Origin: Scenedesmus sp. ARA3
Lineage: Eukaryota > Chlorophyta > Chlorophyceae > Sphaeropleales > Scenedesmaceae
Assembly: GCA_004335835.1 (NCBI GenBank)
Contig: RWJK01001949.1
Location: 1-64,000 of the forward strand
Length of the DNA stretch: 64,000 nt
Direction of reading: 5' to 3'
The notes under the pieces were generated by a model. It was not told where the DNA came from, did no database searches, and saw only the letters and a program-made list of their open reading frames with translations. Positions 6,617 to 64,000 of the stretch are shown in pieces. Every line of letters starts with the position of its first letter. Within the stretch, counting starts at the first letter, position 1. Position numbers and translations under genes: made by a program.

Positions 6617-7615
6617 ATGTCTACGGCGCTCACGGCGTCTGTTTGGGGCCAGGGCCGGGCTGCTGTTGCTTTATCAGCCCAAGTAGTGCAGCAAGGACTC
6701 AAGGAAGGGGATGAAGAGTGCCACATCTGCAGAGACGATATCCCAGCCACGATAGCCTTCGTGCCATGCAAGCACAAGGTCTGCTTCGGCTGTGTGGAGA
6801 ACATGAGGGCCAAGAACATCTTCAAGGTGCGCTGGCAAGCAGGCAGGAAGCAGTTTGGTGGTGCTGTTCATGCTGTGCATGCTGTGCAGCCAGGATAAAT
6901 GCAATGTTACATGGAGATCTCGTAGTTTTTGTAGCTGGATCATGAAATTGCTTAACGGGTGCTAATGTCAGCGCTGATCACAGTGTCATGGAGCTTCAGC
7001 GCAGCGTGCCAGCAGCAGCGGAGGCAGCAGTAGCACCAGCCAGTATGCTTTCTGTGCCCCGCAAAGCATCTGGAGGCTTGTTGCGTGCTGCGGACTGTTG
7101 AAAAGACCATCCAGCAATGCAGTTCATTGCGGCATGGCAGTGCAAGCGGCTCACCCTGCATGCCACATCCTGCCTTCTGTACTGCACACGTTGCTAGCAG
7201 GCAGTTGCCTTGACAACGCACGTGTTGCGTAGTCCTTGCTGCACGTTGCATAACAGGCGGCAGGCTTCTTCATGATGCACGCAGCAGCGCATGATCCCTG
7301 TGATCTGCTGATCATGCTATGCTTCCCTGATCCTCAACCCTGTACAGAAGATCCCGTTCACACATCTCACCCACTTTTGTGCCACGCGTCCCTGCACTGA
7401 TCCTCCTCATTGTCCATCCGTGGCGCCGGCACTGTTACTTACCCATTTTGTGTGCTTGCGCATATCACGTTTCATGCACCCTTGCAGTACGTTTACTGTA
7501 CAGCTGTTGTGACTGCACCTCCACTGCCCATTTCGTGTGCCCTTGCAGGCCGACAAGGGCATCAAGTGCCCTTTCTGCAGACAGTACGTGGACGGCTACC
7601 GGTCAACCCTCACGT

Positions 7616-7671
<56 letters not shown>

Positions 7672-10600
7672 CATGACTGCATGATGGCATTGCAGCTGCA
7701 AAAGCATCCTGCATTGCAACAGCTGGTTGCGATTGGGAGGCTGGCTGCCGGTGGGATCTGATGTGGATGCGCAAAGAAGACGGCTGCGTGTGGCAGCACA
7801 ACATGGCATTGCTGTGTTGCACTGTGCAAAGCCTGCAATTTTGATGCGATTGTCTGAGGGAAGGGGCGGCTGGGTGGCACACGGTGCCTCTCTCTGCACC
7901 TGCTTGCTCACCAAGCAGTTTGCGTGCTGCAGCTGCCGTATAGTTGTGCTCCGTGTGCTACCCGGCACAAACGTTGTCTACATCGTCGCATATGCGCTCG
8001 CCGTTGACTGTTTCCTGCAGGGCCAATGCAGCAGTGCAGAGGTTCCTGCTAGAGGCCAATAAGGCCGCCAACATTGCAGCAGCAGCGCGTGCAGCAGCGG
8101 AGCGTAAGGCCATGGGCCAGCAGGGGCCGGCACCTGCAGCAGCAGCAGCAGCCAGCTCGGCTGGCAGCAGCAGCAGCAGCGCTGCAGCAGCATCAGGCGG
8201 CCTCAGGCCTCCTTCGGTGAGTGGGGTGGGGTTGGCGGGTGAATTGCTGGAAATTTGTGGCAGGGCTAGCAGCAGCAGCAGCGGTTGGCCTCAGGCCTCC
8301 TTCGGTGAGTGGGGTGGGGATGGGGAATGCATTGCCGAGGAGCTGTGGCAGGGGTAGTAGCAGCAGCAGCAGCAGCAGCGGGCGGCCTCAGGTCTTTCTC
8401 GGTGAGCTGTTGGGGGTGGATGGCTGGGAATCTCTGGAAGGAATGGCAGGGCCAGCAGCAGCAGCAGGAGCAGGAGCGGCAGCAGCGGGCGGCCTCAGGC
8501 CTCCCTTGGTGAGCTGTTGGAAGTGGATCGCTGGGGCGCCATGTGAGCTGTGGCAGGCGTAGCAGCAGCAGCAGCAGGCGGCCTCAGGCCTCCCTCGGTG
8601 AGCTGTGGGGAGTGGATTGCTGCGGAGCTGTGGCAGGGGCAGCAGCAGCAGCAGCAGCGGGTGGCCTCAGGCCTCCCTCGTTGAGTGAGCCTCTCGTCCC
8701 CTTTGAGCCTCTCGTTGGCTCCTGACTGGGGTTCCCACTCCTCGTTGAGTGGAGCATGTAATGTAATGTAATGTAATGAGGTGGGGGTGGGGGATGCATT
8801 GCCAAGGAGCTGTGGCAGGGGTAGTAGCAGCAGCAGCAGCACCGGGCGGCCTCAGGTCTTCCTCGGTGAGCTGTTGGGAGTGGATGGCTGGAAGGAATGG
8901 CAGGGGTAGCAGCAGCAAAGGAAAGCGCTGGAAGGAATGGCAGGGGTAGCAACAGCAGCAGGAGCATTAGCGGCAGCCGGCCGCGTCAGGCCTTCCTCCG
9001 TGAGCTGTTGTTAGTGGATCGGCGGGGCGCAGTGGGAGCTGTGGCAGGGGTGGAGCAGCAGCAGCAGCGGGTGGCCTCAGGCCTCCCTCGATGAGTGTCT
9101 GTGTGGGTTTGGATTGCTGCGGAGCTGTGGCAGGGGTAGCAGCAGCAGCAGCAGCAGCAGCAGCGGGTGGCTTCAGGCCTCCCTCGGTGAGCTGTGGGGA
9201 GTGGATTGCTGCGGAGCTGTGGCAGGGGTAGCAGCAGCAGCAGCGGGTGGCCTCGGGCCTCCCTCGGTGTGTTTCTGTGGGGGTTTGTATTGCTGCGGAG
9301 CTGTGGCAGGGGTAGCAGCAGCAGCGGGTGGTCTCAGGCCTCCCTCGTTGAGCGAGGTGGGGCTGGCGGGTGAAGTGCGTCACCTTTCTCCTCGGTATCG
9401 TGTGTGCATGGCATGCTGGCGCGCCAGCTGCAGCAGCAGCAGCAGCAGCGGGCGAGGACTGCAGTTCCTGCGGCCGCACCCAACTGCGAATGTTGTCACT
9501 GTCTGTAACTGTGTTTCTGCAGGCTGGCGCGTCAGCTGCTGCAGCAGCAGCGGGCGAGGACCAGACGTGGAACTGCGGCGGCTGTGGCCGCCAGAACTTT
9601 ATCTGGCGCGAGTTCTGCAGCCACTGCAAGCGGCCCTGCGCCAACCCCTACGCAACAGACAAGCTCAGCCAGACCAAGAAGGTGGGCAGGGGGGGATTGG
9701 GTGCTTGCAGTACATAAAGGAATGCTTAGTTGTGACTGGGACACTTGCTGCTGCTGTGCCAACCCCTACGCAGCAGACAAGCTCAGCCAGACCAAAAAGG
9801 TGGGCAGGGGGGATTGGGTGCCTGCAGACATATTGCTTCATGGCGACTGGGACACTGGCTGCTGCTGCGCCAACGCCTACTGTTACACATATGCAAAAGA
9901 CAAGCTCAGCCAGACCAAGAAGGTGGGCAGGGATGGGATCGTTCGCCTGCAGCACATACGTTTCATTGCAACTGGACACATGCTGCTGCTGTGCCCACCC
10001 CTACGCATCAGGCAAGCTCAGCCAGACCAAGAAGGTGGGCAGGGGTGGATTGGGTGCTTGCAGTGCAGCAAGGTGATGTAGGGACTTATTCCGGGGCACT
10101 TTGGGACACTTGCTGCTGCTGCGCCAACCCCTACGGCTCAGACAAGCTCAGCCAGGCCAAGAAGGTAGGTGGTGCAATCAAGTGCGTGCAGTGCAGCTGT
10201 GTGATGTGCTGGGGCCAGTTGTACTGTAGAGGAAGAGCACTGTTGAAACTGAGCACTCTTGCAACTGACATGTCAGTATGTTTCTTCTGTATTTTCACCC
10301 GCAGGGCCTGTCTGCGGTGACGCGCGAGGAGCTGTGGGCTACACACTTTCTCACTTTGACCAGCACTCGAAAATTTTCATACTAGGCATGACAACCAACC
10401 TTTTTACTCTTCCGCCTGCAGGACCTGTCTGCCGTGAGCCGCGAGGAGCTGGTGGGCTACATCAGGGACCAGGGCGGCTTCAGCCTGCGCAAGGGCCTGC
10501 GCGACATGGGCGTCAGCATCGATGGCCAAAAGAGCTACGGTGCGGTTTGTTTCAAGTCGCTGTGCTAGATGATCCTCGTTTGCTGCAGGAATCTTGGCGG

Positions 10601-13600
10601 CTGTGAGTGCTGTTGCATGACATGGGAGTCAGCGTCGACGGCCAGAAGAGCTATGGTGCGCGTGGCGTCCTCTGTTGTTGATGTGACGCATGTTTACTGC
10701 TTGCTGAGCTGTCGCTGGTTGGAAGTGCTGTTGCGCGACATGGGCGTCAGCATCGACGGACAAAAGAGCTACAGTGCGGCCGCAATCAGACTATGTTTCT
10801 TGCACTTGCTGTAGCAGTTGATTGCGGCCTTTTCCACATATTGCTGTGCCGGATTGTTGTTGCTGCATTACTAACTAGAAGCTGGTTCTGAGCTCCATTC
10901 GTAGCCTGTCACTGGTGGTCAGGACTGATATGCGTGGTCAGCGCTGGGTTGCATGCAACACACCTTCAACTGCCGTTCTGCTGTCCCTGGCTTTTTCTGC
11001 ATGGCCGTCTGCAGGCAGCGTGCAGAGCGTGCGTGAGGCCACAGCCATGTTTGGGCTCAAGCGGGTGCTGCACATAGCAGGTGCGGGGTGGTCTGATGCT
11101 CATTTTGTGTGACTGCTTTGAATGTAAGAGACAGCTGTCAACCAGCGAGTTGTTGCTTGCGCATGCATGATCATGCACGGGCTTTGCTGTGGGTAGCAGT
11201 GCCGCCACCAGTTGTAAAGGTGCTGCGAATTTGGGCGGCGAGAGCGCTACTGTCTTAGCCTGCTGCCTGTCAGCATGCCACACCTCCTCGCCACTTGTCT
11301 GCCTGCTGTGCCCCTTACTGCTGCTGCTGCCAGAGATGCTGTGCGACCCTGATGCGCTGCGTGACGCATCGCTGCACTACCTGGGTAACATCGGCGTGCA
11401 GGTGGGCGCGGCATGCAGTGCAATTTAAAACCTTTGTTTCCGCTCTTGACTGTTATGTCTCCTGTTACATTCTGTATGTTTCACGTTGAGCGCCGTGCTG
11501 TTGCACATCAGCTGAGCCAGTTTCCTTCAGGTCCTGCAGCTGCATCTTGCCAGAGCTGCATTTGTGTGCTCTTTATGGCTTTCAGACTGCACCCCTGATG
11601 CCTTGTCATTGGGGCTGACTAAAGTAGGAGATGGCCATTGCTCTCCCTACAAAAGTAAATATGTAAGTAGCTGTGTCATCACTTGATGCATTTTGGTGTA
11701 TCTGCAGCGCGTGTTTGAGTATCCGGCACAGCTGCAGCTGACTGGTAACTTGGCTAGTAATGTCACAACCTGACCCTCTCGGTTTTCTCACTGTGTTGCT
11801 GTGCCTGCGGCGCGTGTTTTGAGTCGCTGGCCAAGCTGCGGCCGACCAGAAGGTGGACGTGCTGCTGATCTCACTTTTGGATCCTCTCACTCTTCTGGCT
11901 TCCTGTTTCGTTGCATCTGCAGCGCGTGTTTAGGTCGGTGGCCAAGCTGGGCTGACCAGAAGGTAGACGTGCTGCTGATGTCACCTTTGGACCCTCTCAC
12001 TCTTCTGCTTTTCTGTTTCGTCACATCTGCAGCGCGTGTTTGAGTCGCTGGCCAAGCTGCGGCTGGCGTTCCCGCCCGACCGCCCCAACAAGGACTTACA
12101 GGAGTGGACGGCGACACACGGCGGGCGCGACCCCTTCGGTGAGTTTGTTTCAGCATGAAGACCTTAAAATCAAACCTGCTGATGTGGTGGGCCTGCGCTT
12201 ATGCACTGATAGCTGATGTGTCAGCTTCTACTGCAAGCCAAATCAATTGCAACGTTTCAGCGCAGCGGCTCACTCTGATGGATCTGTGCTGTCCAGTGTG
12301 TTGCTCGCCCTTGCCAGCTGCGGCCTTGCCTGTTGGCTGCGCTGCTGTTCAGGCTCACTCTGTTGCCTCACACGTTGTTTTCTGCTGTTATTTGATCTTT
12401 TGATGCAGCCTGCCTGCTGTCTGCGCTGCTGGCGCGCTCGCTGGAGTTCTGCATGCACGACAAGGGCGTGTACGTGGCGCAGTGCGCCGCCAACCTGGCC
12501 AGCAATGCGGAGCTGGTGGAGATGGCCAAGGTGGGTGGGGTTGCCAAGCTGACTGCTAAGGTTTGAGGCTCATGAAAAAGCGGTGAGCGTGTATGTGGCG
12601 CAGTGCGCCGCCAACTTGGCCAGCAACGCAGAACTCGTGGAAATGGCCAAGGTGCGGGTTACGCCCATTTCTGACTGCTAAGGTTACAGGTTGATGATAA
12701 GGCAGTGTGCATGTATGTGGCGCAGTGCGCCGCCAACTTGGCAAGCAACGCGGAGCTTGCTGAGATGGTCATGGTGGGGCTCATGCTGCGTTGAGGGTGC
12801 TCGGGTGGTTTGAGGCTGTGTGCACGTTGTGGTGCTGGCAAGACTCTTGTGCCGGGCGCAGGAACAGGCATGCAAGCCTGTCACCATGTGCAACAGGGCT
12901 CGGGCAAAGCATGCCAAATACTCAGGCCCCGCTTCTGTGTTAGATATCTTTCTGCACACAATATCAGCCTCGAAACTTACGCTTCTGCTGCTGCCGCTGC
13001 TGCCGCTGCTGCCAGGCTGTATTCCCGCTGGCGCTGCCTGTCAGCCGTGACCCTCGTGGCGTGTTTGTGCTGCTGTCGCTGCTGGACCTGTTCAGCCAGC
13101 GCATCTGGGAGGACACCGTCAACTGCCCGCTGGCGCTGCAGGTATGAATGTACGCATTTTGTTTGTATTTTTGGCTATGAATGTTTATGTTCTTGTATTT
13201 GTGCTGCTGTCGCTGCTGGACCTGTTCAGCCAGCGCATATGGGAGGACACCGTCAACTGCCCCCTGGCGCTGCAGGTGATATTGCTGGATTTCTGGACTT
13301 CATGTTGATTTCAGGGTGAAGACAGTGTTGTTGGTCTGTGTGTTTGTGCTGCTGTCGCTGCTGGTCTGTCAACAGCGCATCTGGGAGGACGCCTTTGACT
13401 GACGTGCTATGACGCGCGCCCCTGGCGCTGCAGATGAGGGTGATCTGATACATGTGTTTGGACTGATGTGTTTGGTTTGTGTGTTTGTGCTGCTGTCGCT
13501 GCTGGACCTGTTCAGCCAACGCATTCTGGAAGGACACCGTCAACTGCCCTCTGGCGCTGCAGGTGAGGACATTGACTGCATGTGTTTGGATTGATTTATT

Positions 13601-16600
13601 TGTTGCCGGCAAGTGTTGCGAACCGCCAGCTGGCGCCGGATTGGCATGCAGCGACGTTGCAGGGGCAGTCGCCTGGACTGTGAGTGCTGCTCGCAATAAA
13701 CTGCCGATTTTTGCGTTCCTGCGTGCTGCGCTGTGCTCCAGCTGCAAGCCGCGCTCACTCACATCGTGACTCACCCCTGACTGCCTGCTGCCGCCTGCAC
13801 CGGCTGTCTTTGTGGAACCTTGGACAGGCCGTGGACCTGCTGTGCAACCAGTTCTCCTGCAGCGACAAGCAGCTAGTGCACACCTGCCACCACGCACTGT
13901 CCGGCAAAGTGGTCGTCCGCGCGATCGCAGTGTCGATGCCGCGGACGCCCGCGCTAAAACTCGCGATAAAGATCGCGAGCCATGCTGCAACTCTCGCGGG
14001 CTCTGGTGGGGGTTTGACTACGCTGATGGAGCTGATGCAGCTGTATGGGCACAACCAGCAGGCTGCGGAGGGGCTGCGGGATGTGGTGACCATGATGTGC
14101 TACAGCCTGCAGGGCCAGATGGGCAGGTGCGTGCGGGGTGACAAAGCAAGGCAGGGTTTTGCCTTTTCTTTTCGATCCTTTGCAACCAGCAGGCTGCGGA
14201 GGGGCTGCGGGACGTCGTGGCCATGATGTGCTACAGCCTGCAGGGCCAGATGGGCAGGTGAGGTTGCGGGGTGGGTCGGATACAGTGTGTCTGAGGCGTG
14301 TCAAGGTTTGGCGGCGGTTGCCGGCCATTGGGAGTTGACCATGACGTGCTACAGCCTGCATGGCCAGGTGTGAGCAGGGTGGATGGCGTGCGGTGTGGCG
14401 TGTGCGTGGTGACGTGGTGAAAAATGTGGCGACCATGATGTGCTACAGCCTGCAGGGCCAGATGGGCAGGTGCGTGCGGGGTGACAAAGCAAGGCAGGTT
14501 TTGCTTTTTCTTTTCAATCCTTTGCAACCAGCAGGCTGCGGAGGGGCTGCGGGACGTGGTGACGATTATGTGCTACAGCCTGCAGGGCCAGATGGGCAGG
14601 TGCGTGAAAGTGGAATGGGAATGCGGGGAAGGGTTTAGTGTTGTTTTCAGGCCGTGCGGGTATTGCCGGTGGTTTGAAAAGCGATTAAATGTACGGCCTG
14701 CAAGCCGTACTGGTGCCTGCCAGCGCTGTATGAAAAGTGAACGTGATGGAGCTGATGCAGCTGTATGGGCACAACCAGCAGGCTGCGGAGGGGCTGCGGG
14801 ACGTGGTGACCATGATGTGCTACAGCCTGCAGGGCCAGATGGGCAGGTGAGGTTGCGGGGTGGGTCGGATACAGTGTGTTTAAGGCGTGTCAGGGTTTGT
14901 CGGCGGTTGCCGGTGATATGATAAGTGACCAAGATGTGTTGCAGCCTGCAGGGCCAGATGGGCAGGTGTGTTTGCGGGGTGGATGGTGTGCGGTGTGGTG
15001 TATGTGTGGTGACTAGGGATGTAAGCAGCACCCACAACAGCAGGTGCTGGGTGGGCGGTGACCATGATGTGCTACAGCCTGCAGGGAGAGATGGGCAGGT
15101 GTGTGCAGGGTGGAGTGGATCAAGTGTTTGGGGGCCATGCCGTGCCTTTGCTAGGTGTGGCAGGTGATATGATTGGCCATGATGTGCTACAGCCTGCAGG
15201 GTTAGATGGGCATGTGCGTGCAGTGTGGGGTGGATACAGTGAGTCGTGTCAAGGTTTGTCGGCGGTTGCCGGCCATTGGGAGGTCGACCATGATGTGCCA
15301 CAGCCTGCAGGGCCAGATGGGCAGGTGCGTGAAAGTGGAATGGGGATGCGGGGAAGGGTTTGCTGTGTTTTCAGGCCTTGCTGGTAGTTGGCGGTGATCT
15401 TGAAGTGTGACCATGTGTTGCTGCGTGCAGACACACATTAGCAGGCGCGTGCACCGTGGGGCGGATACAGTGTGCTTGGGTTGTGTCGGGGTTTGTCGGC
15501 GGTTGCCGGCCATTGGGAATTGACCATGATGTGCCACAGCCTGCAGAGCCAGATGGCCAGGTGTGAGCAGGGTAGGCGGTGTGCGGTGTGGTGTGTACGT
15601 CGTGACGTGGTGGGGACGTGGTGACCATGATGTGCTACAGCCTGCAGGGCCAGATGGGCAGGTGTGAGCAGGAGTAAAGCGCGCAGCAGTCCTTTAATCT
15701 TGTCTTTTGCCAAGCATTTCTGGTGCTCCTGGAGCTGCTAGGATCGGCGGCAGCTGCTCAGTGCAGTGTCTTGTACGTGTCTGCAGGTTTGCCACTTCAT
15801 GAGATGAGGCGGCTCAGGAGATGCTGCTGTGCATGGTGGAGCGGCTGCTGCGTGGTATCCACTGCAACTTGATTGCTGCTGTTGCTGCTGCTGCTGCCGT
15901 GCATGTCAATGTCACCCTTGTGCTGCAGGTTTGCCACCTCTAAGGACGTAGGCGCGCAGGAGATGCTGCTGTGCCTGGTGGAGCGGCTGGGCCACGAGCA
16001 GGAGGTGGGCTGGCTGGACAGCATTGCGCAGGAGCTGGTGGGCTGCGCGGACGCCCTGCAGGACAACCCAGGGGTGAGTGTAGTGCAAGTTTATGGTTGC
16101 TTTGCTGTTGGTTAAAGTATATCATCAAGCCACTTTGCATAGCATGCAGCCACTGGACAGCATTGCGCAGGAGCTGGTGGGCTGCGCAGACGCCCTGCAG
16201 GACAACCCAGGGGCGAGATGCAGATTTATGTCTGGTATGGTGTTACATTCGCCGAGTGTGCAGAGGCTGCAGCTGCTGGTCAGCATCTCGCAGTATCTGG
16301 TCGATGCTGCTGAAGCACTGCACGTCAACCAGCCATCCTGACAGCCTTGAGCCGTATGTTGTGTGCGGCTTGCAGTCAGTTGAGACCCATCATGTACCTG
16401 TCGAATGCGGCGCTCAGAGGCCCGCAGGTCTCCCACAAACAAACTTCACATACAACTTCACACCCCGCAGGGCATAGAGGTCTCGAAGTTCATGCTCAGC
16501 CAGCCCTTCATGGACCTGGACAACATCTCAGCACACATCTCCGACATGAAGCACCTGCTCCTACAAACATACTTCACACTCAACTTCACTCTCAACTTCA

Positions 16601-19066: not shown

Positions 19067-19101
<35 letters not shown>

Positions 19102-21582: not shown

Positions 21583-21695
21583 CAGCAGCGGCAGCAGCAG
21601 CAGCAGCGGCAGCAGGACTGGGCTGCGCCATGGCAGGCATCGTATGATACCTGCAGATCAAGCTGGGTGAGGCAAGCAAAGCAGGCAAGCAGTAG
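21505..21695 (+). repeat. Duplicated 3' end of the transporter gene
   Basis: The last ~78 nt of the coding sequence (21505-21582, from GGACTGGGCTGCGCCATGG to the TAG) recur at 21616-21693 after a CAG tract. In the copy a codon equivalent to Trp has become TGA and several other bases differ, so it is a decayed 3' UTR copy. Confidence 0.85.
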
Positions 21696-25822: not shown

Positions 25823-25861
<39 letters not shown>

Positions 25862-27780: not shown

Positions 27781-27837
<57 letters not shown>

Positions 27838-27887
27838 NNNNNNNNNNNNNNNNNNNNNNNNNNNNNNNNNNNNNNNNNNNNNNNNNN

Positions 27888-49847: not shown

Positions 49848-49887
<40 letters not shown>

Positions 49888-50565: not shown

Positions 50566-50621
<56 letters not shown>

Positions 50622-50661
50622 GCACCACTCACCAGATGCAGCTGACCATGATGCTGATGTT

Positions 50662-50698
<37 letters not shown>

Positions 50699-50738
50699 GC
50701 ACCACTCACCAGATGCAGCTGACCATGATGCTGATGTT

Positions 50739-50789
<51 letters not shown>

Positions 50790-51658: not shown

Positions 51659-52929
51659 CTGCTGCCTGCATGGCAGTGTCAATTGCATGCATGATGTGCA
51701 TCAGAAGTTATAAAACATACAGCAAGCACCAGGAAAGCTGCGATTTGTTCACAGGGTTATAACAGCAGCAGAGGAGGGCAACAGCAGCTGCAACAGCAGC
51801 AGTACGCTGTGTTCCCATGTGCGTACCACAGCGCAGCTGCAAGCCGAATGTTCGTCCAGGTACGACGCATGGCATCCGCTTCGGCAGGATCGGACCTACT
51901 TTCTCGTCTATTTCTGCCTACGTGGGACATGGAACGTCATGATCTGGCTACCGGGACGCAGCGCCCACGCTAGCCTAGCCATAAAGCTGTGATTATGTTG
52001 TTAGTGATTTAAATGGCATGTTTACAACCTTAACAGTTGGTGAAGCAACGTTCAGCGTCAGAAGCGCATCATCAGTAGTGCAGCAATAGACACAAGCTGT
52101 TCTCACAGGCCTTGCTGTGAGGGCTGCAGCGTCTACACTATGTGAGCATACTGAGCATATAATCTTGACACACTCGATTCCACATTCGTTTGGCCAGGTT
52201 CTTGCAGGGTGGTGTTACCTGGAACACGTCCCTCCTGTGCTAGGGTTTATCCAGCCGCTCCATGGCTGCTGCACCACACTACCACCACCAACACTCATGC
52301 AGACACAAACAGCCTTAGTAACATGACAATCACATCTTGAGAACTACCACAAAGCCAAGCAGTTGAGCAATTGTCTAACAGCAACGTTTAGGCCCGCGCC
52401 TTGCATGCAAGGCGAAAGCCGCACAATTACCCCAACACATGCTGCTTTATGCATGCATGTTGTCATTTGCAGCACATTCTTGGCCTGTAAAATCACAAGA
52501 TAAACAGCATGTACATGCATGCATGCTCACACGAGATGCTCACAGCAATGAGATGCTTACAACAACAAGGATAACAGCAGGTGTGCTGGTGAACTGATCC
52601 CAAACTAACAATGACACTGCAGAATAACACAGCTATATGCACACTTGCCAGCAGCAGCGAGCTTGTGACGCGTACTGATAATGCGGAAATATGTCAAGAA
52701 CATCACTGTCTTATTCACCACAATCTCTGCTGTTTGGGCCCCATGCGGCTGTATCTTTGGAGAATCAGCATCAGGTTCTTCCATCAAAGTTCTGCATTGC
52801 ATGTCGTGGCACCAACATGATAGCACCGCAACAATGCACAAGCGCGCCCCAAACATGCAGGAACATAACTACAAGTACTGCGCACCAGCAGCATGGATTC
52901 TGACACTCACACCTTACAAAACGCTATAC
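51659..52929. other. 5' flank of EI24 and 3' flank of START gene
   Basis: The N-terminal exon and promoter of EI24 should lie between 51660 and about 51960, but no start is certain. An 18-bp perfect palindrome is at 52397-52414. No other gene is supported. Confidence 0.45.
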
Positions 52930-52934
52930 TTACA
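52911..52934 (-). promoter_or_regulatory. Probable poly(A) signals (TGTAA) of START gene
   Basis: Two TTACA on the plus strand (TGTAA on the minus strand) lie about 55-75 nt past the stop at 52989. Confidence 0.45.
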
Positions 52935-52988
52935 ATATATGCACAAAGTGTACACCATTGCAGCAGCCGCAATGGCATGCCCCGCCAT

Positions 52989-55900
52989 TCACAGCCTGAT
53001 GGTGATCTCTAAAGGCACTGCCGCTGCCAGCAGATCCGGCAGAGACAGGAAGCCACTGCTGCTGCTGTTTGTCTTCCTGCTGCTTGCCGCACTGTTCAGC
53101 TCCCACGCACCGTCCATGCTGCTGCTGCTGCTGCGCATGCTGCTGCTGCTGCTGCGCATGCTGCTGGCGGTGATACTCGCAACCGGCAGCGATGACACCA
53201 CCTTCTTCCCGCCCTTGCCCTTCGCAGACTTCGCTGCTGCTGCTGCTGCATCCTCTGCTGCTTCAAGCTGCCGCCGCCGCTGCACCTCTAGCCGCAGGTC
53301 TGCCATCATGTTCTGCAGCACGCGCGCACACAGCCCCCGCACCAGGTGCATCAGGGGCCCAGGGGGGCGGGCTTTTGGGGCTAGCGCCTGCTCCAGCGTC
53401 ACTAGTGTGGAGCAGTCCTGGCTGCTGCCGTTGTGCAGGCCTGCGAAAGAGACAGACAACAAGGCATGCAGCAGATGTGAAATGAACGCCAATGAAATGG
53501 CGTTGTGCTGCACCACCGAGGTGCATAACAGGAGCGGGTCAATGCTGGCGTGACCCTAGTAGGATTACCAAGCACGCGCATTTAGTGATCGCTGAATGAA
53601 ACAAGCACCTGCTGCGGCAACAATGAGGCCAGACAAGCCAAGCAGGCCAGCATCCAACTCACGTTGCTGCAGCGCTGACAGTGCTGAGCCCGGCGCCAGC
53701 CAGCCATGCTGCTGCTGCTGCTGCTGCTGGCCTGGCCTGTAGATGCTGTCCAGCGTGCTCTGCGTGAAGGGCTGCACGTTCCAGGTGCCGTCAAACTTCT
53801 TCATAAAGCCGTCGTTGCGCGCGTTGGTGAAGCGGATGGTACGCGCGTTGTCATCCTCCCACACAAACAGCTCTGCAGGCAGCAGCAGAAGCAAAAGGCG
53901 GTCCTAAAGTGCCTTTGGACTGGTGTTGATGCACACGTTCGTGAAGTGGATGGTGCGCGCGTTGTCATCCTCCCACACAACTAGCTCTGCAAGCACAGCG
54001 GCAACCGGCAAGTGTGGCCATGAGTGTGAGATGGTGTCATCATAGGTGTTGCAGGGGGCAGGAAGAAGCATTCATGTGGCAGGGTGAAAAGGATGGTGCG
54101 CGCGTTGTCGTCCTCCCACACAAACAGCTCTGCAGGCACAGCAGCAGCAGTCACAAGTGCCTTTAGATTGACGGTGTTGCCTGTGTTGGTGTGAAGCAGA
54201 TCATGCTCACATATAACACTAGAGCACAAACCCACACACATGCGTCATACATCAGTGAGTGAGTGAGTGACTACCCAGGCAGCTCTGCAGCTCCTGGGTA
54301 AGTTAAGGCTAAGAGGGTGTGTGTGGCNNNNNNNNNNNNNNNNNNNNNNNNNNNNNNCTACCCGTCCACTTGCGCCCTAGGGCACAAGCGGGGCGTATCG
54401 CTTGCGTGCGCTCATCTAAACCGTGGCTTTTTGCGGTGGTCTGGTTCGCCTGTACCGTGCTGTCGTTTCTTTGCAGGGTTCGAGTTCGGCTGTGCTAGTC
54501 TTGTGCCAATACATTTCCTTGCTGCCATCATGATTGCCTTGTCATACATCACCATCACCCACAGGAAGTATGAACGCCATGTACCCTACAAAAGCCAACC
54601 AAAATCACCCCCAGCCGCACAACCCCACACACCTGTATCAAAGCAACAGACAGCCACAGGTAACAAACATTCAACAAACATTCAAATAACACCCGCGCAC
54701 CTGTGTCAAAGGTGACAGACAGCCACAGGAACTTGGTGACTGCCCTGTGCCCGATGCGCAGCTTCCTGGCACCGTTTGAAAACACCCACACTCTAAGGTC
54801 GCAAGCAGCCACAACCCCACGCACCTGTGTCAAAGGTGACTGACAGCCACAGGAACTTGGTGACCGCCCTGTGCCCGATGCGCAGCTTGCGCAAGCCCTT
54901 GCCGTCATCCTCAAACATCACAAATAGCCACGACCCCTTGCACTTTTGTCATACACACAACCGACACCCACAGGAAGATTGCCACTGCTGTGCGCCCCAT
55001 GCGCAGTTCGCGGGCCTTCTTGCCGTCGCCAGGAAAGGTCCACCAAGTTCATCACAGCCGCACAACCCCACGCACCTGTGTCAAAGGTGACTGACAGCCA
55101 CAGGAACTTGGTGACTGCCCTGTGCCCGATGCGCAGCTTCCTGGCACCCTTGCCATCATCCTCCAGTGTGGTGCGGTGCAGCGTGTCTTTGATGCCGCGG
55201 AAGATCTCGTGCGAATCTGGTCAAACGTAACATAACAAGGCGGTCAAACATGACCACAGTCAGAGAGGGGAATGGCTGGACCTAGGCATAAGCAGTTGGA
55301 GAATGTTTCATGCACAAGCACACCAAAGTGCGACACTGCCACAGCCAGCATAGCAGGTGCTGCATGTGCAGTGTGCATGAGATGGGCAGTGCTGCTGTGG
55401 CAGACATGTAATGGATATGATGGCGTGTTTCCTGCAAAGGACTGCTGCCTATGCATGCAGTGCTGCCAGCCACAGCTGCTGCTGCAACACATACCAGGCA
55501 CCCGCTGCATGCATGCATACACCCACACTGCACTGCGAGAGGCCTGAGAATGTCCATCACCATGCATCTCAACCTTATCAGCCCTCATTGGCTACTGTGC
55601 CAGTGTGCTGTGCTGCAGGTGAGACCGCTGCAATGTTGTGTGATGACTTTCAGCAGCACCACAAAAGCTGTCTCAGCTAAGTCAGTGCTGATTCATCACT
55701 GCTAGGCTGCTGCATCTGCCTGCTGCTCATGGCCGCTCCAGCCACACTCACTGGGATCCCTCAGCACGCTGTACACATCATCAGGGGGAGCAACAATCTG
55801 CAGACATGTGGAGCACATGCACAAGGTTAGGTACGCATGCATAGCTGAGGACCACCAGCCGCTACTATACTGTGCTTATGTGCGTCATAGCAAGAATCAA

Positions 55901-56807: not shown

Positions 56808-59249
56808 ATGGCCAGGGATGAGGAGGAGCAGGTAAAGCACCTTTGCATTTGCCATCTGCAGAAAGCAGCCTTCCACCGAGCTAGCATGCTGTGGTGGTGT
56901 TACTGCCATCCCTGCACTTGCAGCGCTTGGGCTGCCCAACTTGTCTAGCCATTCACCTTGCACTGCAGCCATTCGTTGGTACCTTGTAGGCATTCTACCC
57001 AGCAGAGAACACATGCTGCATGTCTGATTCCCGCAAAGGCTCTGCGGTGGCCGCCATGTGACTATGTTTGTGGTATGCGTTGCCATGTGTTTGCTCAAAT
57101 TGGCTGCTCTGCTGTGCTTTTGCTTGCAGGAGTTCGAGGAAGAGGAGGACAGCGACTTTGAGGGAGGCTCCGGCGGAGATGATGATGTGGGTGCAGCAGC
57201 TTGTCTGCCTTTGCAGTATCAGCAGCTGATGGTTACCAGCAGCTAAGCAGCATGCGTAGAGCAGTGAAGGATCACTGCAGCAAGCACGCATGTGCACCTG
57301 GTCCAATGGACAACATGAGTTGGCAGGCTGCACGCTGCTGCTGCTGGTGCACGGTGGTTGCTGCAGGCTGTTAGGCACAGCTGGATGTAGCACCTTGTTC
57401 CTGTGTTTAGGCACTCTGCAGGGCTTGCAGTATTGCAGCAAGCTGGTGGTGCCAGGGTGTCCACTGCAACAGCAAGGCAACAGTTTGACAAGCGCATTTC
57501 ATTCGCAATAACATGTTGGTGCTTTTAACTCTGCTTTATATATCAAACTCAATGCTTGCAGGAAGAGGAGCTAGAGGAGGAGGAAGAGGAGGATGCCGGC
57601 AAAGGCCGCAGCAGCAAAGCCAGCAAGGCCAAAGCCAGCAGCAGCAGGGGGGCCAAGGGCAAGGCCGCCAGCGGCAGCAAGCGCAAGAAGTCGCAGTTCA
57701 TAGAGGCAGATGAGGCAGATGAGGTGAGCCCTGCCGCTGATCATTATGCACAGCATGCATGCGTGTTGCCAGCAGTGCTGCTGGCAGTAGCAGCAGCTGT
57801 AGTGGCAGTGGCTCTCACCAGAGCCATTTTGCCCGCAGCATGTGCAGTGGAGCTGTTGCCGGCGGTGCAACGGCAGTGAGCAGCAATGCTAGCGGCCTTC
57901 TGTATTGCAGTGCAACACCAGCGGCAGCAGCGGCTGTTGCCACAGCCATAGTGCCCGCAGCATGTGCAGTGGGCTGTTGCCAGCTATGCAGAGGCAGGAG
58001 CAGCAGTGCCAGCGGCGGCTACGGCAGCAGTGGCAATGACAGCAGTGGCAGCAGCCATAGCGCCGGCACTAGGAGGGGCTGCCGGCACATGTCAGGGGAT
58101 ACACGCCAGTAAAGCAGCATCCTGCAAGGCAATGGTCATGTCAGCAGCATGCTAGCAGTACACAGCAGCTGCTTCAGGCTTGCAGCGGCAGCACACCTGC
58201 AGGTGTTACTGCTGATGCCTCTGTGCTCGCAAGAGACGCGGCAGTGCTGCACCAGCTCCCGGCAGCTACCGACACAGCACAACATTTGCCCTGCAAGCAG
58301 TACCCAAGCACCAATGCTGCAGAACGTCACAATGCTTGTGTGTAAGTCAGTCTTGCTGCCGTGCTTGTTAAAACACCTCCTGCAGGACGATGATGAGGAA
58401 GAGGAGGGCGATGGAGGCGGCGGCAGGAAGCGGCCCAAGGCGTCCCGCTTCATTGATGACATAGCAGCAGTGGACAGCGATGAAGAGGAGGAGGAGGCAG
58501 ACGTGAGTGGTGCTGTGCACGTATGCTGCACGTGCGCAGTGGCAGCTGCGTGAGTGTGCATTGGTGGTGCTGCACCGGCTGTGACGTCTTGTCGCAGTGC
58601 AGCACTGGCAGCACTGGCAGCACTGGGGTAGTCTCAAATGGTGCCTTACTGGTAATGGCGTAGCATTGGATTGTAGCAGAAAATGCAGTAGGTGGAGCAG
58701 CTATTGCAAGCACACCAGCAGTCGGCACCTGCAGGACAACTGCCAGCTGTCTTATGCAGTGCCAGTGCTGCAGGCAGCAGAACGCATCTCAGTTCTTATA
58801 AAATGAAACCTGCTGGTTCATGCCTGCAGGAGGAGATGGACGACATGCTCGCTCATGAGGAGGACCTGGGGGGTGAGGAGCTTGGGGGCGCTAACGCTGC
58901 CGCGCACTACCGCGACCTGGAGCTGCGGCGCGGCGACAAGCGTGAGCAGACAGAAGAAGAGATGGCAAAGTACATCGAGGAAAAGTACAAGTGAGGCTGC
59001 AGGGGTTGAGTTTTGGGCTGCCGAGGTGGGGTCAAAAGGGTATAGGGTGCAAGACAGTTTTGGTGGCAACCTAGGATGCTGTTGGGAGCGCGAGCAAACC
59101 GAGGAGGAGATGGCAAAGTACATCGAGGAAAAGCACAAGTGAGGCTTGGGTGCAAGGCTGAGGGTTTCAGCAGCAGGGATACATTGCAGCTTGGCTTGAC
59201 TCAATGGTACAAGCCATGCCACTGACTTCTCAACTGCGCAGTGGCTGCC

Positions 59250-59302
<53 letters not shown>

Positions 59303-59381
59303 GGCTGCTGCTGCTGCAGGGGCGCGGACTGTGATGACGAAGGGGATGACTACGGGCACTACTGATCTTTGTCGCCTTTGT

Positions 59382-59423
<42 letters not shown>

Positions 59424-62104
59424 AGGGAGGCGGACTACGATGACGAGGAGGACGACTACGGCCACTACGGCGAAGAGGAGGACGTGGGCCAGCAGGGGCT
59501 GCAGCCCACCAAGGAGGACCCAGGCCTGTTCATCGTGACCTGCAGGTGCGGCAGGGGCAGTGGGTACTGTTTTGGCAGGGGTGTCAGGGGAGTGTTGAGT
59601 TTGCGCATGCTAGCATGCGACAGGCAGTTTGGCTTGGGGCTTGTGGCTTGTGTGTGTTTGCAAGCGCTGTCCAACTGCTAAATTCACCTGCTTAAACAAC
59701 CATCTGTCTGCCCTGCTGTCTGCTGTCTGCTGTCCTCCTCAGGCTGGGCTCTGAGCGCGAGGCGTGCATGCAGCTGCTGCAGAAGTGCTACAACATGGCG
59801 GAGCGTGGCACTCCCCTGGCCATCAAGTCTGCGGTGTGCCTGGACCACCTGAAGGGCTTCTTCTACGTGGAGGCGTTTAGGGACTCACACGTGAGTGGGG
59901 GAAACCAGTGAAACAGCGCAGGATAGTGCAGAACAACGGGATACAAGGCTTGGTTGCTGCTCGCGGGGGAGCTTGTGCAGGGCTAGGGGGAGGGGCCTGT
60001 GCTAGAGAGTTGGTGAACTGTTGAGAGTGCCACCATGAGCGGTTCTTCTGTGTGCTTTTCTGTTACAGACAGCTGGTGCAGGACAAGCACTCACACGCAG
60101 AATGATGAAATTGTCTGCCTCACAGCACAACCGCTGTGCATGCTCACCCACACATGCATGCATGCTCGCACATTGTGTGTCAATCTCGCAGGTCATGGAG
60201 GCGGTGCGTGGCCTGCGCACCATCTTCCCCAGCAAGGGCGCGCGCCTGGTGCCGCTGAAGGAGCGGCCCGCGGCCATCACCGTCAACCGCGCAGCTAAGG
60301 CGGCCATCGAGCGCGACAGCTGGGTGCGTGTGAGGGGAGGGCTCTACAAGGATGACCTGGCCAAGGTGCGGGTGTGTTTGTGTGTGGCTATACTGCTTTG
60401 TGTGCGCCGTTTCTAATAATGGTCTTAGCTTTTGTGGGGAGTTGTTGTGGGATCGTGCCTATGAACGTGCAGCGTGAGGGGCGGGCTCTACAAGGACGAC
60501 CTGGCCAAGGTGCGCATCACTGCAATGGCCTTGTTATTCCTGGTGGGAGGTATGTCAGTGACAGCAGGGTCAGTGACAGCTAGGTGCGTGTGAGGGGAGG
60601 GCTCTACAAGGATGACCTGGCCAATGTGCGTGCACTGTCTTGTGTGCGTTGCTTGTGAGCAGGATACGGATGTTTCTAGGGTGTTTAGTGGATTGTGCTC
60701 AAGACAGTGCAGTGCAACATCAATAACAATGCCATCAACAACGTCTCAAATGTTGTGCTGGTTTGTCTGTTGCAGGTGTTTGACGTGGACTTTGCCGGGG
60801 GGCGCGCCACCATCAAGCTGGTGCCACTTCTCATCACATTGGCTTTCAAGCTCAAGCAACGACGTGCGTTATTCCACTTTCGCTGCAGGTGGCCAACGTG
60901 GACTTCGCCGGCTGTGCCGCCATCCAGCTGGTGCTGCGCCTTGTCATGTTGCAACCTTTTGTCATGTGTTACTTATTACTGCAGGTGGTGGACGTGGACT
61001 TTGCCGGGGGCCGTGCCACCATCAAGCTGGTGCCGCGCCTGGACCTGGCAGCCATGGCCAAGGACCACATGGGAGGCGGTGAGGCGCTGCTGCTTTGATA
61101 CTGCATTGATATAATAGTCTTATTGTAAGCCATACCTTTCGGCATCAGCACCGCGCCTCACCACATGGACTACATGGGGGGCGGTGAGGCGCCTGGCGTG
61201 CTGCGTGGATATTGAGATAATATAATAGCCGTGTTGTAAGCCATACCTTTCGGCATCGGCGCCGCGCCTCACCCAGCCTGGCTGCCATGGCCAAGGACCA
61301 CATGGGAGGCGGTGAGGCGCAGCTGGGCAGCACTTGCGGCTGCACTGCGGCGCTGCTGCATTGTAGCACTGCAGCTTATAATGCAGCTGCAGCTGCTGCT
61401 GCATCACTGATGTGGGCCTGGTGCGTGTACGCCGCGTACTGCTTGCACTCACCAGCTTTTTGAGTTGAGAAGTAACAAGTTGCAATCTCTCGCCCTGTGC
61501 AGGCGGGCGGCGCAATCCGTTTGGGCGCCAGGCGGTGCGCCCTCCACCCAAGCCGTGGCGGTCCAGGGAGGCGGGCGACCTGGGCTTGCCAGTGGGCAAG
61601 GACAGGAACGACCCCAACGTGTTCACACTGAACACACACAGGTGAGAAGTTCACACTGAACACATGCGCAACCTTGAGTTTCACACTGAATAAACGTGTG
61701 AGCTGGGGCTGCCAGTGGGCAAGGACAGGAACGACCCCAACGTGTTCACACTGAACACGCACAGGTGAGAAGTTCACACTGAACACATGCGCAACCTCGA
61801 GTTTCACACTGAATAAACGTGTGAGCTGGGGCTGCCAGTGGGCAAGGACAGGAACGACCCCAACGTGTTCACGCTCAACACACACAGGTTATCAACACTA
61901 ACACCATGAACACTAACACCATGGATTGCAATCTGAGTTGCTGGCAATGACAGGGACAACCCTAGCGTCACCATGTCTGCGCAGACAAGTCATGCCACTA
62001 TTGATCTTGTTTCACCAGTCGCGCGTGTGGGTCCTGGCGCCATCGAGGAGTGAGGTACTTGTGTATGCTGAACATGCCAATCTGCTGACACTCTGCTGTG
62101 TTAT

Positions 62105-62145
<41 letters not shown>

Positions 62146-64000
62146 GGTTCATTGAGGGCTACACGCTGCGCAGCTACACGCTCAAGGGCCTCATCCTGCA
62201 GGTGGGGCAAGCAGCAGCTCTGCAAAAGTTATGTGTGGTTGCACCGGCATGCCAACCTTGCTTTTGCAGGGTTTTGACCCTATCATGTACCAGCGTCAGC
62301 AAGTTCACGCTCAAGGGCCTCATGCTGCAGGTGGGGCAAGTGTGAATTGTGTGTGTGTAACGTGATATGTGCCATGTGGCGCAGCCAACTTCTGACCTGA
62401 TCTTGCCCTTAGTGGTAGCGTGTTCGCCGATTCGGGCTGTGGCAGCTGTCTGAATGCTGCTGTGTTAGCTTGATTGCTTCCTTGCTGCTGCCAAGCTCTG
62501 TTGCTGCTGCCAGCCTCTGACGCCGCTGCTGCTGCTGCTCCTGCTGCTGCTGCTGCTGCTGCAGGATGTGGCGCCGCCGCTGGATGAGATCAGCCGCTTC
62601 AACCAGGCTGGGCAGTCGGGCGAGGTGGAGGACCTTACGGTGAGGACACAAGCCATGCACAGCACACTGCTGCTGCTGTGACACACGTGTTGGTGTTGCC
62701 TGGTCACTGCTGTGTGCTGCTCTTGCACTATGGCATCAGTTGCCTTGTCGGCCCCTGCTGCTAACTCGATATGCCCTGGTGATTTATGTCCTCCTCAAAG
62801 GACCCCACGTCTGGCCTGAAGCAACTGCTCAAGGCGCTGCCTGACAGACCCCACTTTGGGGCTCAAGCTGTTGCCAACCCTCTTTGCTGTGTTTGTTGTT
62901 GTGCACAATGTCCTTGCAGGACCCCACCTCTGGGCTGAAGCAGCTGCTCAAGGCGCTGCCTGATGGCGCCACATACATCAGCTTCTGCTGCTGCTGCTGC
63001 TGCTGCTGCTAACTGCTGCTGGCTGTGCCTGGTGCCTTTGCAGGACCCCACGTCTGGGCTGAAGCAGCTGCTCAAGGCGCTGCCTGATGGCGGCGCGCCC
63101 AAGGCCACCTACGTGAAGGGCGACCGCGTGGTGGTGGTGGCGGGAGACCTCAACACCCTGGAGGGTGAGCTCTCTAGACGGGTTTCATTGTTATTTGCAA
63201 ATTCAAAATGTGAAGGGCGACCGCGTGGTGGTGGTGGCGGGAGACCTCAACACACTGGAGGGTGAGCTCTCTAGACGGGTTTCATTGTTATTTGCAAATT
63301 CAAAATGTGAAGGGCGACCGCGTGGTGGTGGTGGCGGGAGACCTCAACACACTGGAGGGTTAGCATTTATAAAAAGGTCGTGGTTGTTATCTGCAAATTC
63401 AAATGTGAAGGGCGACCGCGTGGTGGTGGTGGCGGGAGACCTCAACACGCCGGAGGGTGAGGAATTGGAGACTTGGCAGTTGTTTTGTAGCAGCTACATG
63501 CCGAGGCTGGGTAGTGATGTAACAGTGTTCTCTGCAGTTTCATCCCATGAGGCAGATTTTGCAACTATTTGCAGCAATTTAGGTATGAATAAAGCTCGTA
63601 CATCATGGGCGACCGCGTGATGGTGATGGCGGGAGACCTCAAAACGCTGGAGGGGTGTGGGAGCGTTGAATGCAGCTCCCCCTTGTAGCGCTGGCAATGT
63701 GCTTTCCGGTTGTGCAGATGTGGCGTGAACGCATCTCGCGAGTACGGATCATGCAGCTTGCGCTGATGCGCCAGCCATTCGCCGCAGCTGCATCACAACT
63801 CACATGCTGTGCGCTGTGCGTATCAATGTGTGCTGCAGGCACTGTGGAGGATGTGCGCCCCGATGACGGCAAGCTGCTGGTGCGGCCCGACCTCATGGCT
63901 GACCAGGTGGTGGAGCTGGAGCTGGATGAGGTGCAGAAGCTGTTCAAGGTGAGAAGGGCAAGTGGCTGGCCAAAGGCCTGATGCAGTGATTGAGTGAGTG
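56808..64000 (+). CDS. SPT5: Transcription elongation factor SPT5 (5' part, runs off window)
   Basis: Exons: 56808-56831, 57130-57186, 57562-57723, 58386-58502, 58830-58990, 59426-59545, 59743-59890, 60192-60365, 60985-61078, 61503-61641, 62147-62201, 62565-62639, 63044-63164, 63839-63948; 519 codons in frame, continuing beyond the edge. SPT5 with SPT4 forms DSIF, which binds RNA polymerase II and controls pausing and processivity. The N-terminus is the usual acidic region with Lys/Ser patches (S-R-F-I-D-D-I motif). Exons 6-8 give the NGN domain (C-Y-N-M-A-E-R-G-T-P-L-A-I-K-S-A, then L-K-G-F-F-Y-V-E-A-F and V-R-G-L-R-T-I-F). KOW motifs follow: W-V-R-V-R-G-G-L-Y-K-D-D-L-A with V-D-F-A-G-G-R-A-T-I-K-L-V-P-R-L-D-L, then V-K-G-D-R-V-V-V-V-A-G-D-L-N. 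The start is the ATG before Ala-Arg-Asp-Glu-Glu-Glu. Seven exons have tandem edge copies in the introns. Confidence 0.9.
59085..59140 (+). repeat. Copy of SPT5 exon 5 donor end
   Basis: It repeats the segment coding Glu-Gln-Thr-Glu-Glu-Glu-Met-Ala-Lys-Tyr-Ile-Glu-Glu-Lys with an intact AAGTGAGG donor, 150 bp after the real one. Confidence 0.88.
59250..59425 (+). repeat. CTG tracts with a decayed exon 6 copy
   Basis: A (CTG)n tract of about 65 bp ends in CTGCAG and a copy of exon 6 start (59321-59364) whose frame reads Cys-Asp-Asp-Glu-Gly-Asp-Asp-Tyr-Gly-His-Tyr and then TGA. A second tract ends in the true CTGCAG acceptor at 59425. Confidence 0.9.
60470..61078 (+). repeat. Copies of SPT5 exon 8 donor and exon 9 acceptor edges
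   Basis: Exon 8 donor-end copies lie at about 60473-60510 and 60587-60625. Exon 9 acceptor-edge copies start at 60777 and 60890; the real exon starts at 60985. All three start GTG-x-x-x-(G/A)AC-GTG-GAC-TT and have TTGCAG or CTGCAG acceptors. Further copies of the exon 9 end lie at about 61150-61190 and 61275-61320. Confidence 0.88.
61560..61888 (+). repeat. 3-fold repeat of SPT5 exon 10 donor end
   Basis: 'ccagtgggcaaggacaggaa' through 'cacacag' and its donor appears at 61589-61641, 61711-61765 and 61836-61888. The first two share about 60 bp of intron, and the copies are about 120 bp apart. Confidence 0.92.
62290..62340 (+). repeat. Copy of SPT5 exon 11 donor end
   Basis: 'acgctcaagggcctcat' and 'ctgcaggtggggcaag' of exon 11 (62169-62210) recur here with an intact donor. 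Confidence 0.85.
62799..63655 (+). repeat. Copies of both edges of SPT5 exon 13
   Basis: Acceptor-edge copies start at 62800 and 62921 (real exon 63044). Donor-edge copies of the KOW segment (GTGAAGGGCGACCGCGTGG) start at 63210, 63307, 63405 and about 63605, after the real one at 63113. The first three intervals are 97, 97 and 98 bp. Confidence 0.93.

Follow-up and report, generated by a model that had tools for sequence, protein, structure and literature searches.

Genes and repeat arrays of the window

The window, by which we mean the whole 64-kb stretch of DNA analysed here, belongs to a green alga that is Tetradesmus obliquus or closely related to it, and holds three plus-strand genes that were curated by hand as four blocks: gene A, SPT5, and the blocks E1 (10 exons) and E2 (5 exons), which are parts of one gene, gene E. 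Gene A was drawn with 15 exons, with the boundaries of exons 11 and 12 uncertain; exon 11 as drawn contains an in-frame stop and is unreliable, and the reading frames of exons 12-14 were set by hand. SPT5 has 14 exons inside the window. A single-exon transporter gene and predicted minus-strand genes are also present, and the repeat arrays associated with all of these are collected in Table 1.

Comparison of the window with itself (E <= 1e-5, at least 30 bp) returned 109 pairs of direct repeats less than 5 kb apart and no pair, direct or inverted, more than 5 kb apart; every listed pair is thus local, as the original prediction had it. In the curated blocks, 26 arrays include or touch an intact exon edge, one lies wholly within an intron (57784-58072), and one sits at a stop codon. 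An exon edge of gene E that was added later carries a further array (29760-30009), outside the count of 26. Probing each of the 40 curated introns with its flanking edges gave 70 exon-edge copies at 30 of the 80 edges and in 22 introns, confirming that introns hold copies of exon edges together with their splice signals; reversed-sequence probes on the same introns gave zero matches, even at a still lower score limit. One copy was found at 14 edges, two at 10, three at 2, four at 2, and 11 at 2, so that the predicted multiplicity stands while its upper figure of 12 does not.

Copies extend to the splice junction in 55 of 70 cases, with GT directly after 43 of 52 donor-type copies and AG directly before 16 of 18 acceptor-type copies. 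Copy lengths range from 31 to 119 bp, one end being fixed and the extent variable, and the spacing falls between 80 and 170 bp in 96 of 117 cases (mean 123, SD 20 within those 96). Donor-edge copies lie downstream and acceptor-edge copies upstream of the intact exon, as predicted, with the probes covering only those sides; this layout follows from topological necessity for tandem duplication. The prediction that both strands are affected holds as far as minus-strand arrays were seen, two of which (53811-54138 and 54692-55151) have minus-strand coding scores, but the curated genes are all on the plus strand.

Table 1. Repeat arrays at exon edges and related features in the window
Feature	Position	Strand	Detail
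Gene A exon 3 (8021-8216)	8021..9356	+	11 donor-edge copies downstream (8269-9347), CAG-rich
Gene A exon 4 (9523-9681)	9415..10164	+	upstream acceptor-edge copy 9415-9477; four downstream donor-edge copies 9754, 9885, 9989, 10119
Gene A exon 5 (10422-10539)	10305..10773	+	acceptor-edge copy 10307-10343; donor-edge copies 10614-10653, 10732-10772
Gene A exon 9 (12409-12530)	12409..12773	+	two donor-edge copies 12587-12651, 12709-12771
Gene A exon 10 (13016-13141)	13016..13562	+	three donor-edge copies
Gene A exon 12 edge	14024..15661	+	11 donor-edge copies, spacing mostly 94-133
Gene A exon 14 (16891-17096)	16442..17633	+	three upstream acceptor-edge copies; two downstream donor-edge copies
Control: single-exon transporter CDS (20305-21582)	21499..21701	+	end copied 113 bp downstream into 3' UTR
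Gene E exon 24696-24752	24696..24860	+	donor-edge copy 24826-24860
Gene E exon 30743-30916	30619..31043	+	acceptor-edge copy 30619-30679 upstream; donor-edge copy 30969-31043 downstream
Gene E exon from 31751	31246..31841	+	acceptor-edge copies at 31246, 31529
Gene E exon 32615-32812	32615..33135	+	two donor-edge copies 32894-32970, 33059-33135
SPT5 exons 5 and 6	58830..59545	+	donor-edge copy 59087-59138; acceptor-edge copy 59324-59362
SPT5 exons 8 and 9	60192..61311	+	donor copies 60467, 60575, 61258; acceptor copies 60776, 60889
SPT5 exon 10 (61503-61641)	61503..61887	+	two donor-edge copies, exact 123-bp steps
SPT5 exon 13 (63044-63164)	62801..63653	+	acceptor-edge copies 62801, 62920; donor-edge copies 63210, 63307, 63405, 63599
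Arrays among predicted minus-strand genes	47799..55163	-	47799-48230, 48424-49135, 49452-49704, 50619-50740, 53811-54138, 54590-55163

Boundaries and spacers of the copies

The gene E copy at 24826-24860 is identical at 42 of 42 bases including the start of the donor, and similarity is absent beyond it on both sides. In a set of 108 copies the intron side was alignable in only 24, leaving an unalignable spacer between direct copies in the other 84, and this was also true of 19 of the 26 copies with at least 95% identity; simulated intron sides stayed alignable in 84-99% of cases at 20% substitution and 3-5% indels per base, and in 48% at 10% indels. Slippage of the exon edge with its intron, as originally suggested, does not suffice as the sole process given so few alignable intron sides. 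The simplest form of that suggestion, plain tandem duplication of exon edge and intron followed by neutral decay, can draw on the homologous spacers of this minority and on arrays of exact period (16442-16979, 61582-61889, and 63113-63461), the first of which includes acceptor-edge copies of gene A exon 14 in exact 140-bp steps with homologous spacers. Broken copies also match the neutral expectation (see below), and the 11 copies of gene A exon 12, which differ from most other arrays, sum to 10 synonymous and 25 nonsynonymous differences. These observations are opposed by the shortfall of alignable spacers relative to simulation and by the frameshift-free copies, in which 266 of 457 changes are synonymous versus 194.7 expected, an excess that is unchanged with one copy per edge. 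As a sole cause, plain tandem duplication with neutral decay is therefore disfavoured, and we consider it quite unlikely. A minisatellite, in which the whole unit and spacer are repeated, likewise describes the exact-period subset and fails for the copies overall.

Past the splice consensus, similarity is near background for donors and acceptors, broken copies included. Such a stop, with one fixed end and a varying length, would be consistent with copying tied to the splice junction, for example via partly spliced RNA that writes exon ends back near their source. However, the copies contain intronic splice consensus, which is absent from mature mRNA, and the coding edge at the transporter stop codon, where no splice site is involved, has been copied in the same manner; we judge junction-tied copying quite unlikely. 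The CAG/CTG tracts proposed as helpers of duplication show no association with copies, as a tract of at least five units is found in 19 of the 54 introns that carry copies and in 70 of the 154 that lack them (Fisher p 0.2), and on the basis of these 208 introns a role as drivers is not supported.

Coding signature and splicing of the copies

Copies without a frameshift or stop have a dN/dS of 0.24 (n=79), compared to 0.59 for broken copies (n=29; Fisher 4e-7, 14 stop changes left out), the latter value lying close to the 0.50 predicted when a copy drifts neutrally while its exon stays constrained. All dN/dS tests exclude the donor copies of gene A exon 3; the synonymous excess and dispersion were taken from 106 copies and the broken/unbroken contrast from 108, the latter without simple-repeat masking. 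The gene A exon 9 copy at 12587-12651, for instance, has 7 synonymous and 0 nonsynonymous differences, while copies of gene A exon 10 show three single-base gaps in one and a one-base insertion in another, and the gene E donor-edge copy at 30969-31043 has an in-frame stop, judged by eye. The 24 copies with alignable spacers also have a low dN/dS of 0.22, so the coding stamp is not confined to old arrays. Taken together, the undamaged copies have changed in the manner of protein-coding sequence, a feature that ordinary tandem duplication followed by decay leaves unaccounted for. Gene conversion between a copy and its exon was rejected as the source of the synonymous excess on the argument that it would make the excess smaller.

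Dispersion across the 106 copies is 2.32 for nonsynonymous and 1.12 for synonymous change, making the synonymous distance near uniform, and the two are correlated at 0.11; in unbroken copies taken one per edge, synonymous and nonsynonymous rates correlate with r 0.33 (p 0.02). Simulated continuous neutral ages give dispersions of 2.25-2.4 and 2.7-3.0 for synonymous and nonsynonymous change, respectively. The continuous series of ages read from near-identical to decayed copies is thus not borne out, as nonsynonymous change varies but synonymous distance hardly does.

A near-uniform synonymous distance with variable dN, unrelated intron flanks, a sharp junction and a step of about 120 bp would all be produced if exon edges of a diverged haplotype or strain had been joined to this sequence, either by the assembler, the step being near read length, or by recombination between alleles. 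Simulated copies with a synonymous head start at birth show dispersions (1.25-1.49 for synonymous and 1.99-2.63 for nonsynonymous change) near those observed, the assembly has N gaps at 27838-27887 and 54328-54357, and the related strain NREL 46B-D3, described as likely diploid in the available text of PMC7955037, adds to the case. The same simulations, however, yield a correlation of 0.30-0.40 rather than 0.11, the 29 broken copies among the 108 have the same dS as the rest, and 16 of 30 edges carry at least two copies, with 11 at two of them. For the transporter, one full-length copy and no second haplotype was seen in the assembly among the 40 of 140 candidates scored. The exon-edge copies are also more distant than the alternate scaffolds of NREL 46B-D3 (1,606 of 2,661), for which the same text gives a criterion of >95% identity over more than half the length. 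We regard haplotype chimaerism as disfavoured and unlikely, although worth serious consideration.

With respect to splicing, the 902-aa SPT5 obtained by splicing the exons by hand is covered by a protein from a public contig, P0122, at 100% identity (rounded) and with none of the copies included, so that copies are probably skipped in this gene, the sole one with transcript-like evidence. The spliced frame is continuous without copies in both SPT5 and gene E. A second splice site that is strong and frame-preserving accompanies 8 of 70 copies versus 12.7% of random intron positions (scored as donor-type), which rejects the copies as complete exons, and in-frame read-through into copies is rare, with 0 of 17 donor edges and 2 of 13 acceptor edges allowing it. 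The supply of alternative exons envisaged in the original prediction finds no support in these counts. A functional role of the copies as alternative exons or exon ends might be argued from the coding stamp of unbroken copies, their retained splice signals, and two 87-nt in-frame stretches in gene E (32884-32970 and 33049-33135), but given the splice-site and read-through counts and the copy-free SPT5 protein we lend this reading hardly any credence. Within gene E, the two donor-edge copies that those stretches contain are the best candidates for real in-frame mini-exons. A homology search intended to detect gene E isoforms that include copies returned no close Tetradesmus protein (best identity 51%), and a named T. 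obliquus protein matches at 50% identity over 22% of the query.

Recurrence in the genome and possible origin

Twenty further loci were sampled, with genes predicted by a purpose-built self-trained model; two of these (L013 and L018), being mostly masked, were excluded from gene prediction. At the sampled loci, 32 of 168 predicted introns hold a copy and reversed probes gave none. Locus L002, which continues the window directly, accounts for five of the 32 and nine further contigs for the others, and the pattern, which the original prediction would have given up if confined to the window, recurs beyond it. Predicted exon edges are touched by 39 of 59 sampled arrays, versus 21.9 expected by random placement (three short-period arrays excluded), and exon interiors hold 1 of 59 versus 3.0 expected; copies belonging to one array are not independent. 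Density is uneven, with loci L004 and L007 lacking any array. Pooled with the window, 54 of 208 examined introns, about a quarter, carry extra exon edges, and their median length is 489 bp (n=54) compared to 277 bp in introns without copies (n=154), in keeping with the predicted gain of intron length.

Whole-assembly searches with two introns matched only the introns themselves and their own neighbouring exon edge, so that no source elsewhere in the genome was found for the copies or spacers of these two, and a search with SPT5 59743-61641 returned local copies and a dispersed repeat of ~50 bp. Duplications of overlapping size with complete or near-complete unit homology also occur in noncoding sequence (L009:102-710, L021:7610-7880, L014:9328-9549, and window positions 57784-58072 and 19192-19364), which counts in favour of a short-range duplication process.

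A literature search of titles and abstract openings, whose coverage leaves out most subscription journals, found no description of the pattern, yet the claim that no named system fits is too strong, as it has three close relatives. Internal gene duplication, or tandem exon duplication, reportedly treated by Gao and Lynch in 2009, also consists of partial duplications inside genes; here, however, the copies mostly have one splice site, the similarity beginning inside the exon in the displayed cases, rather than being whole exons with both, and their steps fall in a narrow range. Intron gain by tandem genomic duplication, in which the duplicated unit, an exonic segment with AGGT, itself turns into a new intron (reviewed in PMC3443670 as far as its accessible part goes, with Drosophila cases in that of PMC2891723), similarly involves a short local duplication with splice signals that is tolerated since splicing hides one copy. 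In contrast, the copies described here are one-sided copies of existing exon edges gained by pre-existing introns, and lie inside longer introns between intact exons. Introners, copies of one element in many genes according to the portion of PMC9860276 available, likewise alter intron content in many genes; the two introns searched here, in contrast, have no similar counterpart at many unrelated loci. Closest in geometry are the "alternative duplications" seen in yeast and human cells whose flap processing is impaired, attributed to 3'-flap Okazaki fragment maturation, which leave two direct copies with internal sequence between them, like the 84 unalignable spacers; the accessible text of PMC12633238 connects them neither with exon edges nor with lasting arrays.

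We tentatively favour a process of short-range duplication, active at many places in the genome and with a step of about 120 bp, whose products survive beyond intact coding edges. It would set down a direct copy of a segment close to the original, in many cases separated from it by sequence that was not duplicated, possibly by the replication-associated route of unprocessed 3' flaps at Okazaki fragments, the closest described (PMC12633238, in the part available). A copy in an intron or 3' UTR would be tolerated wherever the coding edge stays intact, since the outer, undamaged site is the one that serves splicing or termination; the transporter stop-codon end counts for such a process at coding edges without a splice site. 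Secondary unequal exchange between repeats may then generate exact-period arrays such as those of SPT5 exons 10 and 13, and the exon 10 array, with a homologous inner spacer and unrelated sequence past its last copy, has the pattern that such exchange would leave. Copies able to recombine with their own exon would remain intact in the coding sense, because loop-out between close repeats would bring a damaged copy into the exon, while those acquiring a frameshift or stop would decay neutrally. Three observations argue against this duplication account: random endpoints would not yield a sharp stop at the splice junction, a continuing process does not predict a near-uniform synonymous distance, and the low dN/dS extends to the copies with alignable spacers. 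The junction-sharp ends and the coding stamp are left unexplained by duplication, and any reason for a segment to end at a splice junction would be conjectural. The fuller proposition, that a genome-wide Tetradesmus process copies junction-cut exon ends about 120 bp into the adjacent intron and that some untranslated copies are coding-constrained because they act as a back-up that recombines with the exon edge, seems quite improbable to us.

How introns lengthen and exon edges change has long been asked, and few cases can be watched in living organisms. Extra edges, intact or broken, in 54 of 208 introns of a cultured alga make their origin, splicing, and loss directly testable. Should the sequences instead prove to be chimaeric assembly, they would serve as a warning that short-range haplotype joins can mimic a genome-wide biological pattern; long-read confirmation of the coding stamp on untranslated copies would suggest that selection acts through recombination.

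Exon-edge copies within and beyond the window

Edge probes applied to the curated genes of the window detected 70 intronic copies of adjacent exon edges, at 30 of 80 edges and in 22 of 40 introns, a count that omits the introns flanking the two middle exons of gene E, the exons added last. The copy reaches the splice junction exactly in 55 of the 70, and GT is kept in 43 of 52 donor-type copies (downstream of the intact exon) and AG in 16 of 18 acceptor-type copies (upstream of it). The copied exon piece is 31 to 119 bp long in the window. Successive junctions lie 80-170 bp apart in 96 of 117 cases (mean 123, SD 20 among those 96), while the other 21 distances exceed 170 bp, many of them being about twice the step; multiples of three are not favoured among these distances (33 of 117).

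At 18 sampled loci, whose structures come from a self-trained gene model, a copy was present in 32 of 168 predicted introns, and reversed probes found none in any of the 168. Five of the 32 lie in L002, the direct continuation of the window, and the rest on nine other contigs; thus the pattern, for which the original prediction had asked whether it occurs solely in the window, extends past it. Its distribution is uneven, as two of the sampled loci, L004 and L007, are without repeat arrays. For the part of SPT5 within the window, the self-trained model gives 18 exons versus 14 curated: its four additional exons are copies, and it extends one curated exon by eight bases and swaps another for a copy.

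Source genome and gene models

Four gene blocks were curated by splice signals and open frame, two of them forming the single gene E. A homology search with gene E found no close Tetradesmus protein (best match 51%), and its relatives carry the name Asp/Asn hydroxylases.

Curated gene blocks and the transporter in the window
Feature	Position	Strand	Remarks
Gene A	6617-19198	+	RING-like start judged by eye
Transporter	20305-21582		single exon
Gene E (E1 and E2)	23490-33853	+	1062 aa, 17 exons as curated
SPT5	from 56808	+	

The transporter has 98% identity with a Tetradesmus obliquus protein, and the hand-spliced SPT5 protein has 99% identity with a model labelled Sobl393, a label that probably denotes T. 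obliquus UTEX 393. The transporter and SPT5 identities place the organism in T. obliquus or very close to it. SPT5 also matches P0122, a protein of 1145 aa encoded on a public 4268-bp contig with the source label lgn, at a rounded 100% identity, with three single-residue differences and one residue lost through hand splicing. This contig is probably transcript-derived, since it is too short for the introns of the SPT5 gene, and exon-edge copies are absent from P0122 when compared with hand-spliced SPT5.

The assembly containing the window comprises 87.27 Mb in 1567 contigs. Runs of N at 27838-27887 (within a CTG tract) and 54328-54357 are gaps in the assembly. A dispersed repeat of ~50 bp in an SPT5 intron (61111-61157) recurs in at least 38 places on other contigs and may also break the assembly, because at least four of these lie no more than ten bases from the contig's first base.

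Spacers, coding stamp and duplications away from splice edges

Simple tandem duplication followed by decay fails as the sole explanation, with spacer homology, the coding stamp and synonymous distance all against it. The intron sequence beside the copy is alignable to that beside the exon for 24 of 108 copies; simulated spacers were alignable in 84-99% of cases at 20% substitution with 3-5% indels per base, in 48% at 10% indels and in 10% at 40% substitution with 8% indels. Among 48 donor and 33 acceptor copies, all with an unalignable spacer, similarity over the ten junction-proximal exon bases is 0.77-0.98 (donor) and 0.67-0.94 (acceptor); on the intron side the splice consensus is kept for about five bases, after which the mean is 0.31 versus a background of 0.26-0.28. 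The same drop at the junction is seen in 25 broken copies, those with a frameshift or stop. Near acceptors, intron-side similarity is slightly raised, which may reflect a remnant of homology.

The dN/dS ratio is 0.24 in 79 unbroken copies versus 0.59 in 29 broken ones (Fisher 4e-7). The broken set controls internally for mutation bias, although its stops and alignment gaps may raise its dN; the expectation for a neutral copy next to a constrained exon is 0.50. From these sequences, unbroken copies look as if they descend from working exon edges, and we found no route to present-day translation of copies above chance level. Synonymous distance is 0.18-0.22 across all copy classes. Over 106 copies, synonymous change is near Poisson (dispersion 1.12), nonsynonymous change is overdispersed (2.32) and the two are uncorrelated (r 0.11, p 0.28); with one unbroken copy per edge they correlate (r 0.33, p 0.02). 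Simulated continuous ages gave a synonymous dispersion of 2.25-2.4 and a correlation of ~0.6. The best fit came from one common age combined with variable constraint, closely followed, for the dispersions, by a synonymous head start at birth. Gene A exon 12 runs against a uniform synonymous distance: its 11 copies show few synonymous differences, 10 next to 25 nonsynonymous ones.

Noncoding duplications of overlapping unit length show 66 to 90% identity across roughly the whole unit, and the stop-codon end of the transporter recurs in its own 3' UTR at an offset of 113 bp. Fourteen clusters with homology over at least 85% of the unit and at least 80% identity were scored as five exon plus noncoding, seven intron and two outside. 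Of the seven intron clusters, 16442-16979 proved to be the exon 14 edge array of gene A, and three others are minisatellites, their units measuring 21-30 bp. By these location scores, the edge excess sits mainly in copies with homology confined to the exon part. Elsewhere in the window, a 659-aa open frame on the minus strand (1349-3328) is built for the most part from a 43-codon (129-bp) unit in tandem; such a coding array stays in frame, a kind of duplication that purifying selection would tolerate. In gene E, an acceptor-edge copy has four identical 30-bp units (27157-27279) just upstream. Inverted repeats at 28337-28646, 23754-23866 and 33546-33835 could represent hairpins or else foldback elements of small size.

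Origin of the copies and published systems

One account that remains derives the copies from diverged, still functional versions of the gene in other haplotypes, brought in by recombination or by assembly. The near-uniform synonymous distance and sharp junction speak for such an origin. Against it stand the broken copies, the presence of two or more copies at 16 of the 30 edges, the finding of just one full-length transporter copy among the 40 of 140 candidates scored, and the small distance between haplotypes of a related strain (PMC7955037); these weigh most on the assembly version. With low confidence, we rank above it copies linked to their exon through recombination, by which selection on the exon would extend to the copies.

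In intron gain by tandem genomic duplication, as outlined in PMC3443670 and PMC2891723, an AGGT-bearing exon segment is duplicated to give a new intron, whereas the copies here sit inside introns already present. Their geometry is like that of the "alternative duplications" reported in PMC12633238, which have internal sequence between copies and arise from 3'-flap Okazaki maturation. Intron repeats are not mentioned in three reports on related genomes (PMC5552973, PMC7291106 and the available portion of PMC7590803, where the words "intron" and "tandem" are absent). The exon-edge copies are real, recurrent and unusual, and fall within short-range duplication as already known, as a variant marked by two puzzling properties, the junction limit and the coding stamp.
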